This document shows, one piece after another, positions 6,724 through 54,590 of a DNA stretch of 54,590 nucleotides (the stretch's first letter is position 1; each line of letters starts with the position of its first letter). The position numbers and the translations under genes were made by a program. The notes below the pieces were generated by a model, which did no database searches, was not told the origin of the DNA, and saw only the letters and a program-made list of their open reading frames with translations. The stretch is from Candidatus Vecturithrix granuli (GTDB taxonomy: Bacteria > Moduliflexota > Moduliflexia > Moduliflexales > Moduliflexaceae), in contig DF820479.1 in the NCBI GenBank assembly GCA_000739535.1, forward strand, positions 53,019 through 107,608, read 5' to 3'.

Positions 6724-6761
6724 AAAAAAACCGGGTTTCTTCAGGAAACCCGGTTTTTTTT
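6724..6761 (+). terminator. Rho-independent terminator after giant surface gene
   Basis: An A-run, then a GC-topped stem (CCGGGTTTC / GAAACCCGG) with a short TTCAG-type loop and a run of eight T. It sits 35 bp after the stop of the DUF11 gene. The same stem core recurs at seven or more other gaps in this window. The rest of 6690-7001 holds a candidate promoter and AT-rich sequence only. Confidence 0.85.
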
Positions 6762-13624: not shown

Positions 13625-13673
13625 GGAGTGCGAAAGCTCTGCTTTCGCTGTCAAAGCAGAGCTTTGACACTCC
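13625..13673. repeat. Solo copy of the GGAGTG...CACTCC palindromic core
   Basis: An inverted repeat with a CTCTGCTTTCG / CAAAGCAGAG core, just before the DapF-like gene. The same core lies inside the larger element at 36215-36335 and in the partial copy at 54524-54590. Here the outer AGAAGCTGTTTTAAAAG arms are missing, so it is either an independent inner unit or a decayed copy. Confidence 0.8.
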
Positions 13674-22547: not shown

Positions 22548-22677
22548 GAAAAAGTGGTAGTGGTTAAATAGTAAGTGATGCCCGCTCGTTGAGCGAAGTC
22601 GAAACGAGCCGCTCACTGTTCCCTTCGACTTCGCTCAGGGAACGCATCACTTACTATTTAACCACTACCGAAAAAGT
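22548..22677. mobile_element. MITE-like element with 8-bp direct repeats
   Basis: A 114-bp unit (22556-22669) ends in perfect inverted repeats of about 26 bp (GGTAGTGGTTAAATAGTAAG and complement). It is bounded on both sides by GAAAAAGT (22548-22555 and 22670-22677), as expected for a target-site duplication. Inside are GAGCGAAGTCGA / TCGACTTCGCTC palindromes, also found in the elements at 34502 and 41321. There is no coding capacity, so a transposase must act from elsewhere. Confidence 0.82.
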
Positions 22678-34501: not shown

Positions 34502-34651
34502 CATTCTTGCTTATATAAGACATCCTAAGTCAATTATGTCTCGACTTCGCTCGACAACCGCCCGGTCACTGAGCGAAGCGGTGTTCTGAGCGGTGTCGAA
34601 GGATCGAAGTGACATGACACCAATGAGTTAGGATGCCTATATACCATTCTT
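34502..34651. mobile_element. MITE-like element with imperfect ends and CATTCTT flanks
   Basis: The end pairs CTTATATAAGACATCCTAAG and CTTAGGATG-like TTAGGATGCCTATATA are diverged inverted repeats. CATTCTT occurs on both flanks (34502-34508 and 34645-34651), a possible 7-bp target duplication. The interior has the TCGACTTCGCTCGA / GAGCGAAGCGG core of the elements at 22548 and 41321. It occupies the 369-bp gap 34437-34805. Confidence 0.65.
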
Positions 34652-35864: not shown

Positions 35865-36214
35865 ACTTTTCTTTCCTCCTTGCTCCAAAGTTACTCCTAC
35901 GTTTTCAGTTGTTTAATAAATTAAGACGTTCAACAATGTCTCATAAATGTGATCCTTGAAATTTTGTAAAGAAAAAAAGTTCATAATTTTCTAAAATTTT
36001 GAAATATTTATGGAACTTTTTCCTTTAGAGATAGACAAATGATTTTTTGAAATTTAAAAAAGAAACTCCCAAAATAACTCGTGCGTATTTTTGATGGCAT
36101 TTTCTTGTTGACATCCCCTCTATGACTTTTCTACCAGAGTATGTAAAGATTTGACCCACAAACGATCAGATAATATTCTTGATAACTCATTATAAATTGA
36201 ACTTCTAACCATTT

Positions 36215-36335
36215 AGAAGCTGTTTTAAAAGTCCATGCAACGGGCATTTCGAGAGAGGTGAACAGGAGTGTCAAAGCTCTGCTTTGACAGCGAAAGCAGA
36301 GCACTCCTCACCTGCAAACTTTTAAAACAGCTTCT
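36215..36335. mobile_element. 121-bp MITE-like element with AGAAGCTGTTTTAAAAG ends
   Basis: Perfect 18-bp terminal inverted repeats (AGAAGCTGTTTTAAAAGT and complement) enclose the CACTCC / GGAGTG palindromic core also found at 13625. The left interior (36233-36255) differs from the right, so the copy is not fully symmetric. No clear target duplication is visible. It fills the upstream region of the lipoprotein gene, whose ribosome site AGGGAGG begins right after the right arm. Confidence 0.85.
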
Positions 36336-36349
36336 TAGGGAGGATTTCT

Positions 36350-38409: not shown

Positions 38410-41307
38410 ATGAAGAAATTTATTTTCATATCAGGAAATTTGGCAGCCATGATATTGATTTTGTGCAGTCTCATTCCATTCGCATTAGCGCAGGATTTTC
38501 GGGAATTTCCTCCCGGATTGACCTGGAAACAGATCGAAACCGAGCACTTTCTCATTCTTTACGATGAACAGAATCGTGAAATTGCCCAACAGGTCGCTGT
38601 CATTGCCGAACCGATTCATCAGCGAGTGACTGATCTCCTGGACTACACGCTGTCCTCGAAAACGTATGTCATTCTGGCAGATCATCTGGATGTTATCAAT
38701 GGCTATGCTAACTTCATTCCAGATAACAAAATCGTGCTCTATTTGCGCGAACCCGGAGCAGGCATGGCGCCTTCCTTCGGTGTGCGTTCAAAGGACTGGC
38801 TGTCACTTGTGTTCACGCATGAATATACACATATCGTACATACGAATATGAAGAAAAAATGGTATGCCGCGCTTGGGAAAATTTTCGGCAAAGCCATGCT
38901 GCCGAACGTCGGATTACCTTATTGGATGATCGAAGGCTTAGCGGTTTATGCCGAAACCAAATTTGAAGATGGCCGCGGCTATCATCCGTATTATGACATG
39001 ATGATGCGTACCGAGATTTTAGAACAGGATTTTAAAAAACTGGATCAGATGGAAGCGCTCACGCTGCGTACCTGGCCGATGGGCACGATCTGTTATGTGT
39101 ATGGTTACTTTTTTTCGCAGTATCTCGCAGATACTTACGGCGAAGACCGCATGATTCAACTACACCATAAAAACGCTTCGAAATCTCCGATCCTGGGCGG
39201 CAATATTTTTAAGAAAGTATATGACAAAAACGAATCAACACTGTGGAAAGAATGGCGCGCTGCCATGCAGCAGCATTATGACGAACAATTGGCTGACATC
39301 CGTTCCCTGCCAGTGACGGAAACCCGCGCCATCAGTACAAGCGGATATTATACCAATTCACCAGTTGTGTCGCCTGACGGCCAGTATATTTATTATATTG
39401 AGCTCGGAGCACATGAACTGCCGGCCTTGATCCAATATAACCTGAGTGATGGGAGTAAAAACAGGCTGATTGAAGAGTACTTTTCCGGAAATTTCAGTAT
39501 TTCTCCTGACGGGCAGAAACTCTATTTCTCAAAGAGCGACGTCTATCGTATCTTTTCCTATTATAGCGATCTCTATGTGTTCGATCTCACAACGCATGGC
39601 GTGCAGCGTCTGACCAGCGGCCAGCGCGCCTTTGATCCGGCAATTGCGCCTGACGGCAGAACCCTGGTGTTTACCACAACCGATGCCGGGAGCATGAGCC
39701 TGATGCGCATGGATCTTGAGACAAAGACGATTATGCCCATTTTGGAAACCGCGGATCATACGCAGATACGCTATCCGGCATTTTCTTCCGACGGTTCACG
39801 AATTGCCCTGCAAATGTGGAAAGAAGGCGGTTTTCAAGACATTTATGTCATGAATAGCGATGGCAGCAATCTGCAAGCCCTGACCTTCGATCAAGCCACA
39901 GACGAAGCTCCGATTTGGGGGATGGATGATCAATACGTATTCTTCGGTTCGGATCGAACCTTTGTGCCGAATATCTTTGCGTATTCTCTGAAAGATCAGA
40001 CCTTATATCAGGTCACAAATGTCCTGACCGGAGTGTTTCATCCGGTTATCTTGCCAGATCAGGGTCAACTTGTATTTGAGCACTATTCCGGCAGCGGCAT
40101 AGATATTCATTTGACAGATTTGAATCAGGATGCCTGGCAATCAGTGGCATACAGCCATGAACAGCAAGCAGAACTACCTCTCGTTGTCGCTGAACAGCAT
40201 GAACCTCTCGCTGAACGGAATTATAGCCCATTCTCATCGCTCTTGCCGAAATACTGGCTGCCAGCCTGGGGCGAAGATGAAGATGGCTGGCAATTGGGGG
40301 CGAGTATTGCCGGACAGGATGTGCTGTCGCAGCATCAGTACACGCTTTCTGCGCTCTATGGTTTGGAAAGTCAGCGCATGAGCGGATTCGGCATGTACAC
40401 CAACCGTCAATTCTTTCCGGAAATCACGCTGTTTGGTTCTGATTCTGCGAACCTGTTCACTGATATTTTTCAAGATGACACTGGCGATGACAAGGATTAT
40501 TGGCAGCGCGAACAGGTCGCTGGCGTCAACCTGAGTATTCCCTTGTATCAAAGGCAGGATACCGGCATCTATCTTTCAGCAGGTTATCGCTACAAAAATC
40601 TTGAGATTCTGAACGATGATGATATCTTGCTGCCCTTGCCGGATGAAGGCGTGTTAAGCGGCGTCTCAGCCGGCCTGACGTTCGGCCATTTGAAATCCTC
40701 ACTGTACGCATTCTCGCCGGAAAAAGGGTTTCTGGCGTCTGTAACCTACCGGCGCGATGATGAAGTGTTCGGCAGCGATTTTAACCTGCATACGGTCATC
40801 GGCGATACCAGAGCCTATCTGAGCCTGCCAAAACTGAAGCATCATGTGTTGGCGCTGCGGGCTGTCGGCGGAGCAAGCGACGGGGATACCCTGAATCAGG
40901 GCGTGTTTCAATTAGGCGGGTTTAGTATTAGCGGCGCAATCGCCGAACTGGATCAACAACGCTATTTCTTGCGCGGCTATGACGCCAATGCGCTCTCCGG
41001 CAACCGCTTTGCGCTCGGTTCAGCGGAATATCGTTTCCCAATCTGGTATCCGCAGCGCGGAATACGCCAAATCTGGAGTTTTTTTGATAGTTTGACCGCT
41101 GCCGTCTTTTATGATGTCGGTAACGCCTGGGAGAAAGATCTTGAGTGGGATGAATTCAAACACGGCGTCGGCGCTGAAGCTCGTCTGAACGTCGTAATCA
41201 AAAATGCGGTTCCCGTTACGTTCAGATTGGGATATGCGCACGGCTTCGATGATGATCTGGGCGAATCGCAATTTATCTATTCCTTCGCCATAAACTTCTG
41301 GCTTTAA
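38410..41307 (+). CDS. Exported metalloprotease-propeller-barrel fusion
   Basis: 965 residues from ATG 38410; the longer frame from 38221 would cross the terminator. The signal peptide ends near IPFALAQ. Residues about 40-270 carry HExxH in FTHEYTHIVHT, with a downstream Glu in WMIEGLAVYAETKFE, the gluzincin pattern (peptidase MA-like). Residues about 300-560 are WD40/TolB-like propeller repeats (VVSPDGQYIYYI, SISPDGQKLYFS, AIAPDGRTLVFT, MNSDGSNLQALT). The C-terminal 300 residues form an outer-membrane barrel of the D15/Omp85 surface antigen type, ending FAINFWL. A surface-displayed protease is inferred. It has no close operon neighbour. Confidence 0.85.
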   Translation: MKKFIFISGNLAAMILILCSLIPFALAQDFREFPPGLTWKQIETEHFLILYDEQNREIAQQVAVIAEPIHQRVTDLLDYTLSSKTYVILADHLDVINGYANFIPDNKIVLYLREPGAGMAPSFGVRSKDWLSLVFTHEYTHIVHTNMKKKWYAALGKIFGKAMLPNVGLPYWMIEGLAVYAETKFEDGRGYHPYYDMMMRTEILEQDFKKLDQMEALTLRTWPMGTICYVYGYFFSQYLADTYGEDRMIQLHHKNASKSPILGGNIFKKVYDKNESTLWKEWRAAMQQHYDEQLADIRSLPVTETRAISTSGYYTNSPVVSPDGQYIYYIELGAHELPALIQYNLSDGSKNRLIEEYFSGNFSISPDGQKLYFSKSDVYRIFSYYSDLYVFDLTTHGVQRLTSGQRAFDPAIAPDGRTLVFTTTDAGSMSLMRMDLETKTIMPILETADHTQIRYPAFSSDGSRIALQMWKEGGFQDIYVMNSDGSNLQALTFDQATDEAPIWGMDDQYVFFGSDRTFVPNIFAYSLKDQTLYQVTNVLTGVFHPVILPDQGQLVFEHYSGSGIDIHLTDLNQDAWQSVAYSHEQQAELPLVVAEQHEPLAERNYSPFSSLLPKYWLPAWGEDEDGWQLGASIAGQDVLSQHQYTLSALYGLESQRMSGFGMYTNRQFFPEITLFGSDSANLFTDIFQDDTGDDKDYWQREQVAGVNLSIPLYQRQDTGIYLSAGYRYKNLEILNDDDILLPLPDEGVLSGVSAGLTFGHLKSSLYAFSPEKGFLASVTYRRDDEVFGSDFNLHTVIGDTRAYLSLPKLKHHVLALRAVGGASDGDTLNQGVFQLGGFSISGAIAELDQQRYFLRGYDANALSGNRFALGSAEYRFPIWYPQRGIRQIWSFFDSLTAAVFYDVGNAWEKDLEWDEFKHGVGAEARLNVVIKNAVPVTFRLGYAHGFDDDLGESQFIYSFAINFWL

Positions 41308-41320
41308 GCCGCCGGATTCC

Positions 41321-41453
41321 CCTCCTGGGAGCAGGACTGTTAAGTTCTACACATTTTGTCATCTCGACTCCGCTCGATGACCGAAACACCGCACGTCGAG
41401 CGAAGTCGAGACGCCATTTCTGACGAGAACTTAACAGCCCTGCCTCCTGGGAG
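41321..41453. mobile_element. MITE-like element inserted in another repeat, 11-bp duplication
   Basis: The unit 41332-41442 has ends CAGGACTGTTAAGTTCT / AGAACTTAACAGCCCTG (one mismatch) and the TCGACTCCGCTCGA / TCGAGCGAAGTCGA core. CCTCCTGGGAG occurs immediately on both sides (41321-41331 and 41443-41453). Joining the flanks restores ATTCCCCTCCTGGGAG followed by a GGGTAAAA-type tail, as in the intact repeat at 43397-43490. Confidence 0.85.
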
Positions 41454-41514
41454 AGGTTAGGAGGGTAAAATGCCGATTTTAAGAAAATATTCAAAATAAC
41501 CTTCCAATCGCGAT

Positions 41515-42267
41515 ATGATGAATGTCAACGAAACCTATCAAAAATTTGCTGATTACTATGATGCCTATGCCGGCGCATTTGACAAGGATTTAGCCTTTTA
41601 TACCTCCTTGTGTCGTCCGGATGAGAAGATTTTAGAGGTCGGATGCGGAACAGGAAGGGTCTTACAACGTTTTTTAAACGATGGATTTCAGATCACAGGG
41701 GTTGATATTTCTGACGAAATGCTTGCGGTGGCAAAGCAAAAATTGGCGTCATTTTGCCATTCCGGAAATCTCGTGATTCTGCATCATAATTTTTTTGAGC
41801 ATCCTCTGCCAGAGGTCTATGACAGGGTATTGGTCACCTGGTTTACATTCAACTACATTCTTGAGACCCCGGAAAATTTTCTGAAAAATCTTGTTGCCTC
41901 AATGGACAGCCAGGCAATGCTTGCCATGGATGTCTTTTATCCCAGGACATTCACTAACCCGAATGTAAACGATGTGTGGACGACACGGCAGTTGACCTAT
42001 CATGGCAGAGTGATCACCGTCCAGGATAAGCGTACCGTTTCCGGCGACATGGAAGAACGGATTCAAATCTACCGGGAGAACGGGAAAGAAACGCACATAC
42101 ACACGAGACGAAAATATTATCCGCCTCATATCCTGAAACAATTACTGGAATGTGCTGGCTTAATGGAAATCATGTTTTCCGAACAGTATGAGAGCAACGC
42201 TTTCAAACCAACCCTTGAAGAGCATGAAATTGTCGAACATTTTGTAGTGAACGCGAAAAAACCATGA
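41515..42267 (+). CDS. Class I SAM-dependent methyltransferase
   Basis: 250 residues. SAM-binding motif I is ILEVGCGTGRVLQRF (about 39-53). The acidic residue after strand 2 is in ITGVDISDEMLAVAKQKL (about 62-79), and motif IV is near YDRVLVTWFTFNYI. The C-terminal half has the strand pair of the small methyltransferase fold. The substrate is not predictable. The start has no clear ribosome site; ATG 41518 is possible. A 9-codon frame with GGAGGG lies just upstream (41470-41499). Confidence 0.85.
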   Translation: MMNVNETYQKFADYYDAYAGAFDKDLAFYTSLCRPDEKILEVGCGTGRVLQRFLNDGFQITGVDISDEMLAVAKQKLASFCHSGNLVILHHNFFEHPLPEVYDRVLVTWFTFNYILETPENFLKNLVASMDSQAMLAMDVFYPRTFTNPNVNDVWTTRQLTYHGRVITVQDKRTVSGDMEERIQIYRENGKETHIHTRRKYYPPHILKQLLECAGLMEIMFSEQYESNAFKPTLEEHEIVEHFVVNAKKP

Positions 42268-43332: not shown

Positions 43333-43396
43333 AGTGGTCAAAAACGTGGAGGCCACTTTCAAGGTGGACTCCACTGGAATTCTCCATATTGTAAGC

Positions 43397-43490
43397 TTTT
43401 ACCCACCCCTTACCCCTCCCAGGAGGGGAATTTGTTCATCGGCAAGGACACCGTATTCCCCTCCTGGGAGGGGTAATGGGTGGGTAAAAA
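43397..43490. repeat. TTTTACCCACCCCT inverted repeat between convergent genes
   Basis: Arms of about 36 bp: TTTTACCCACCCCTTACCCC (43397) and its complement ending GGGTGGGTAAAA at 43490. It may end transcription from both sides. It is the intact relative of the repeat interrupted at 41321. Confidence 0.85.
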
Positions 43491-43503
43491 CATAATCGCC
43501 CCA

Positions 43504-54523: not shown

Positions 54524-54590
54524 AGAAGCTGTTTTAAAAGTTTGCAGGTGAGGAGTGCGAAAGCTCTGCTTTCGCTGTCAAAGCAGAGCT
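54524..54590. mobile_element. Partial MITE copy cut by the window end
   Basis: 67 bp from the AGAAGCTGTTTTAAAAG end through GCAGGTGAGGAGTG into the CTCTGCTTTCG core, in the inverse orientation to the right half of 36215-36335 with near-complete identity. The remainder of the element lies outside the window. Confidence 0.85.

Follow-up and report, generated by a model that had tools for sequence, protein, structure and literature searches.

At positions 41,321-41,453 of a 54,590-nucleotide stretch of Candidatus Vecturithrix granuli DNA (contig DF820479.1; the whole stretch is called the window here), an inverted-repeat unit lies within another repeat. This arrangement raises the questions of whether one repeat was inserted into the other, in what order the two arrived, and what moved the later one. 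The best explanation, to which we give a probability of about 93%, is that 41332-41442 is a non-autonomous MITE with ISAs1-type ends, that landed in the middle of an arm of a C-rich/G-rich palindromic repeat already in place, duplicating 11 bp (Table 1). The bracketed unit is 111 bp long, non-coding and multicopy, has 17-bp terminal inverted repeats, and lies between two identical 11-bp copies of CCTCCTGGGAG. The sequence-only reading had proposed this duplication, which proves exact to the base; it is not a chosen alignment, because the ends of the element are fixed independently by its other copies.

Table 1. Parts of the composite repeat and its uninterrupted counterpart, in window coordinates.
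Feature	Positions	Strand	Basis
Host palindromic repeat (A type), left remnant: ATTCC and first CCTCCTGGGAG copy (41321-41331)	41316-41331	+	sequence; spliced-host alignment
111-bp MITE with ISAs1-type ends	41332-41442	+	91% identity to consensus of 51 copies, 112-bp class
Left terminal inverted repeat CAGGACTGTTAAGTTCT, one mismatch to CAGGGCTGTTAAGTTCT	41332-41348	+	end-pattern match
Core hairpin 1, R1 type, GTCATCTCGACTCCGCTCGATGAC	41358-41381	+	sequence; R1 core in 54/79 elements
Core hairpin 2, R1 type, inverted, CGTCGAGCGAAGTCGAGACG	41394-41413	-	sequence; R1 core comparison
Right terminal inverted repeat, exact CAGGGCTGTTAAGTTCT	41426-41442	-	end-pattern match
Second target-duplication copy (41443-41453) and host repeat right remnant, AGGTTAGGAGGGTAAAA	41443-41470	+	sequence; spliced-host alignment
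A-type repeat without insertion (paralogous empty site); its two inverted 40-nt arms are 93% complementary	43392-43494	.	sequence, paralogous copies

The V. granuli assembly, derived from a metagenome, consists of 21 contigs totalling 8,384,694 bases and has N gaps close to repeats; in one locus (L090), at 945-1075 and 2305-2400, short stretches are duplicated across a single N and resemble unmerged contig ends. Searching the genome with the region returned 79 matches (both strands, palindromic query; 440 candidates at first look), and, when no more than one mismatch is allowed, the 17-bp end is found 199 times, against 0 for a reversed control pattern. Ends could be paired 81 times in the selected genome stretches that were fetched and that the element count (about 80 pairs) covers; 79 of the pairs span less than 500 bp, and the paired elements there are mostly 111-114 bp or 122-125 bp long. 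Direct repeats of at least 9 bp (up to 20% mismatch) abut 47 of these 79 elements, compared with 3.6% when partners are shuffled, and perfect 11-bp repeats abut 11 of 79, compared with 0.23%. Duplication length in the 39 strictest cases has its mode at 11 bp (9 bp in 1, 10 in 1, 11 in 24, 12 in 10 and 13 in 3), while 32 of the 79 elements have no clear duplication.

CTCC-YR-GGAG flanks about a dozen copies at either end, as might be expected if CCTCCTGGGAG were a part of the mobile unit that is always carried along rather than a target duplication. Most copies, however, have different duplicated flanks (e.g., CCATCAAATGG, CGTTTAGGCTT, CCGAGGTTTCG, CGGACATCCCC, GGTTTTTAGGG), and homology between copies ends at the 17-bp ends; the differing duplicated sequences refute a fixed flank, leaving this explanation practically no probability. 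A nested appearance could also arise without any transposition, if dispersed palindromes recombined or underwent gene conversion, or through assembly error. The scaffolds do contain N gaps and repeated contig ends beside repeats (L090, L093, L046), and elements with unmatched flanks could be recombinants. Against this, exact, sharp-ended duplications at many different targets require no shared homology, the same architecture is present in independent assemblies of Bacteroidota, Ignavibacteria and Desulfobacterota, and the letters of 41101-41700, read directly, contain no N. Such an origin is very improbable, and insertion by transposition is the reading carried forward here.

The nature of the host repeat bears on the order of events. 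Removal by script of the element and one duplication copy yields ATTCCCCTCCTGGGAGAGGTTAGGAGGGTAAAA, which aligns to the arm at 43455-43489 with a local score of 48 (maximum of 22 in 500 shuffles), as predicted by the earlier suggestion that deleting the unit and one copy restores an intact repeat. The comparison that it had drawn with an intact repeat at 43397-43490 stands as to homology and is refined in extent: 43392-43494 is a doublet, whereas the host (41316-41470) has one arm only. The A repeat has 89 matches in the genome (both strands counted, palindromic query) and can be classed with REP/REPIN sequences as a high-copy intergenic palindrome that often forms an inverted doublet, as at 43392-43494; a GTAG/GGAG foot is not apparent in its arm sequence, and it has no assigned RAYT gene. 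Insertion into it is recurrent, as 11 of 78 element host sites reach a score of 36 or more with the A arm, and CTCC-YR-GGAG is common to several sites that score lower. Because the host, once spliced, aligns with a single arm of the repeat at 43392-43494, the sequence supports the age order first proposed, in which the palindromic repeat would be older and the CAGGACTGTTAAG unit would have come later; the exact duplication at independently defined ends and the uninterrupted paralogous copies of the repeat agree with it. An orthologous empty site, looked for by way of the neighbouring methyltransferase gene in three relatives, was not found; the nearest of these belong to another genus and another family, and the best match to that gene has only 24% identity. 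The 114-bp unit was not found in 39 relatives; the exact 17-bp end is present in one order-level relative (G003), in 133-bp elements with a different core.

The composite begins 8 bp past the stop codon (41307) of a 1028-aa open reading frame and folds as a long hairpin (-53.3 kcal/mol). These features would fit exaptation by the upstream gene, as a transcription terminator or to stabilise the 3' end of its mRNA, in place of a chance transposon landing. Copies elsewhere adjoin unrelated genes, though, and a secondary function of this kind would leave the duplications unexplained; we consider it unlikely. Elsewhere in the window, a AAAACCGGGTTTTTTGAAAAACCCGGTTTT hairpin family is found at 6726, 20860, 22338, 22724, 27440, 38272 and 46927, whose members are possibly terminators or another repeat family.

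The MITE can be assigned to a parent family through its ends. Among the matches listed, the 17-bp end is found in many other genomes, mostly of Bacteroidota and also of Ignavibacteria and Desulfobacterota. In a Saprospiraceae contig (L203), identical 17-bp ends bound a 1291-bp element with a 10-bp duplication; in a Tannerellaceae contig (L178), the element is 1224 bp long, with one mismatch in one end and a 12-bp duplication. In each, two open reading frames encode ISAs1-family transposase, every one of them above the NCBIfam cut-off. Since full-length ISAs1-family insertion sequences in these two Bacteroidota contigs share its ends, the unit is an ISAs1-type MITE, its matching autonomous elements both residing in other organisms. 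The duplications usually given for ISAs1 are 8-10 bp long, slightly shorter than those of the V. granuli elements. The ISAs1 transposase (PF13808, NF033564) was not detected in the V. granuli assembly (G000) or in three order-level relatives, so the V. granuli elements are orphans in this assembly. The PF01609 transposases of the genome (L090-L099) were considered as partners and rejected, as none has the 17-bp ends; L090, L091, L096 and L099 have ends of other types. Two longer spans between paired ends were likewise rejected as autonomous elements, one (413 bp) being an N-filled gap and the other (1799 bp) a span over a regulator-like gene. An ISAs1-family DDE transposase that is now missing from the genome, or was never assembled, would have moved the MITE.

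The insertion sites of the elements may indicate why palindromes are hit repeatedly. Base composition around 35 of the V. granuli duplications is C-rich to the left and G-rich to the right, symmetric about the centre, and 23 duplications from other genomes follow the same trend. The duplication together with 5 bp on either side contains CCC-N5-9-GGG in 22 of 39 cases, compared with 1.3% of random 21-mers. At least seven of eight dyad pairs are present in 9 of 39 V. granuli targets (35 of 4874 random and 2 of 302 local control sites) and in 7 of 26 foreign targets (0.6% of random sites). Favoured targets are C-rich/G-rich and frequently palindromic. Their dyad centre is imperfect in most cases, and clear targets such as CCATCAAATGG and CGTTTAGGCTT are non-palindromic, so C and G runs may outweigh the dyad and may explain the preference by themselves. 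The putative transposase would favour targets of dyad symmetry in which C-runs lie to the left and G-runs to the right; palindromes would supply such sites, and at this locus insertion would have occurred at the centre of one A-repeat arm, duplicating 11 bp. Recurrent ISAs1 insertion into C-rich/G-rich palindromes was not found described in the open-access literature searched. Insertion sequences of five families, IS3, IS110, IS4, IS256 and IS5, are known to target REPs, ISAs1 not being named among them (PMC1525189).

The cores of the MITEs present a second layer of nesting. R1 hairpins form the core in 54 of the 79 elements, followed by R2 (CCCCGCAAGCGGGG-type) in 15, R4 in 5, R5 in 3 and R3 in 1, with one element having none of these; further R3-cored copies are found at L134 and L353. 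R2-type palindromes also lie within two other frames, TATCAGGACTTACGCA and AGTTCGGACATTTT. The ends of an IS701-family element above cut-off (L096) resemble the former frame, and those of a sub-cut-off IS701 match (L099) the latter. R3 likewise lies within frame CTAAGAAGCTGTTTTAAAAGTT, the autonomous partner of which is an IS5-family element (L091). The same cores are present in different frames. ISAs1-type MITEs in other phyla often, but not always, have hairpin doublets of different sequence as cores (folds read by eye, with no control).

R3 is a GGAG-footed hairpin with 436 genome matches, against none for a control pattern, and has the attributes of a REPIN: a RAYT gene (L281, 1423-1968; NF047646, 94.5 bits with a cut-off of 80) has R3 arrays on both sides. 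Twelve Y1-type transposase matches (L272-L283) are present in the V. granuli genome and none in three order-level relatives. When isolated R3 doublets were fetched irrespective of frame, 23 of 24 measured exactly 49 bp (GGAGTG to CACTCC). Flanks forming an inverted repeat surround 6 of the 24, compared with 2.0% of cross-paired flanks, while most of the others lie in unrelated sequence; the 49-bp doublet is found in two named MITE frames, in other inverted-repeat frames, and alone.

Several of these repeats are visible in the window itself. A complete 49-bp R3 doublet without a frame is at 13625-13673, and an R3 REP copy is cut by the window end (54552-54590). At 36213-36338, CTTAGAAGCTGTTTTAAAAG-type ends that match the IS5-family element at L091 surround an R3 doublet. 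A 114-bp element at 22556-22669 has perfect 26-bp inverted repeats (GGTAGTGGTTAAATAGTAAGTGATGC) around R1-like hairpins, with seven similar elements in other contigs examined, and an R1 hairpin lies in another inverted-repeat frame (CATCCTAA..TTAGGATG) at about 34523-34633.

Nesting is bidirectional, with MITEs inserted in palindromes and hairpin doublets found within MITEs. At L353, a palindrome contains a MITE that contains an R3 REP doublet; at C20:826036 and C19:438424, a copy of the 17-bp-ended MITE lies inside a palindrome that in turn lies inside the ends of a third element. These cases lend support to the suggestion in the sequence-only reading that the nested look of many gaps here results from serial insertion. 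The membership of the unit in a known transposon family, the recurrence of its interior as a repeat in other frames, and the two-way nesting had escaped that reading. The hairpin core of the MITE may have been acquired as a separate mobile unit, in which case the RAYT would have moved R3 into MITEs and R1 and R2 would be mobile in their own right. As a tentative extension, two mobile systems would nest mutually: DDE-type MITEs would enter palindromes, REP doublets moved by a single-strand transposase would enter the hairpin loops of MITEs, and cores and ends would reassort into hybrids movable by either transposase. The sharing of cores between frames could instead reflect DNA capture or template switching at the birth of a MITE. 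No mechanism by which a core enters a frame was observed; R1 and R2 have no identified transposase, and R2 hairpins are of the same kind as the favoured targets, from which capture is conceivable. The constant 49-bp length of isolated R3 doublets whatever their flanks, mostly in unrelated sequence, is instead what a self-moving unit would give, and the RAYT gene of R3 is flanked by R3 arrays. Capture is a serious rival, if somewhat less likely than not.

In summary, both the element, a MITE, and the kind of target that it entered are ordinary, since REP-targeting insertion sequences (PMC1525189) and REP dimers in palindromes (PMC3733652) are both known; what is added is the example of ISAs1 and the sharing of cores in both directions. 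Both halves of the nesting have precedents, and it is the combination, the targeting by ISAs1, and the cores common to unrelated transposon ends that look new in the open-access literature, where nothing relevant was found on ISAs1 with REP targets or on a MITE with a REPIN. The locus allows events in repeat-rich intergenic DNA to be put in a datable order and accounts for the nested look of such gaps, and ISAs1 joins the transposon families that insert repeatedly in palindromic repeats. If cores pass from one frame to another, short repeats would have a modular build, with different enzymes moving their parts; if mutual nesting is true, a single process would have repeatedly produced the ISAs1-type ends that carry differing hairpin cores in distant phyla. 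The finding also offers a testable account of the REP dimers inside long palindromes that were reported in 2013 without explanation (PMC3733652).

Among known systems, the V. granuli elements resemble ISAs1 insertion sequences (NCBIfam NF033564) and derived MITEs in having 17-bp ends identical to those of the Saprospiraceae element and a duplication length (mode 11 bp) close to that at the two autonomous copies (10 and 12 bp), with both full-length elements matching the transposase model, but differ in that the V. granuli genome has no detected transposase. As with the REP-targeting insertion sequences of Tobes and Pareja (2006; PMC1525189), mobile elements repeatedly break a short palindromic repeat near the same point; here, however, it is a MITE that inserts, and it does so into a class of palindromes, not one REP. 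R3 is like the REPINs with RAYT transposases, being a GGAG-footed doublet with a RAYT gene amid its arrays, and is unlike them in that some copies are carried inside DDE-type MITEs. Finally, Di Nocera and colleagues (2013; PMC3733652) described REP dimers inside longer palindromes in Anabaena variabilis and Halothiobacillus neapolitanus, and the V. granuli cores similarly lie within terminal inverted repeats; in contrast to those palindromes, two of the V. granuli frames (17-bp ends, TIR3) have counterparts in identified autonomous transposons, and one and the same dimer occupies more than one frame.
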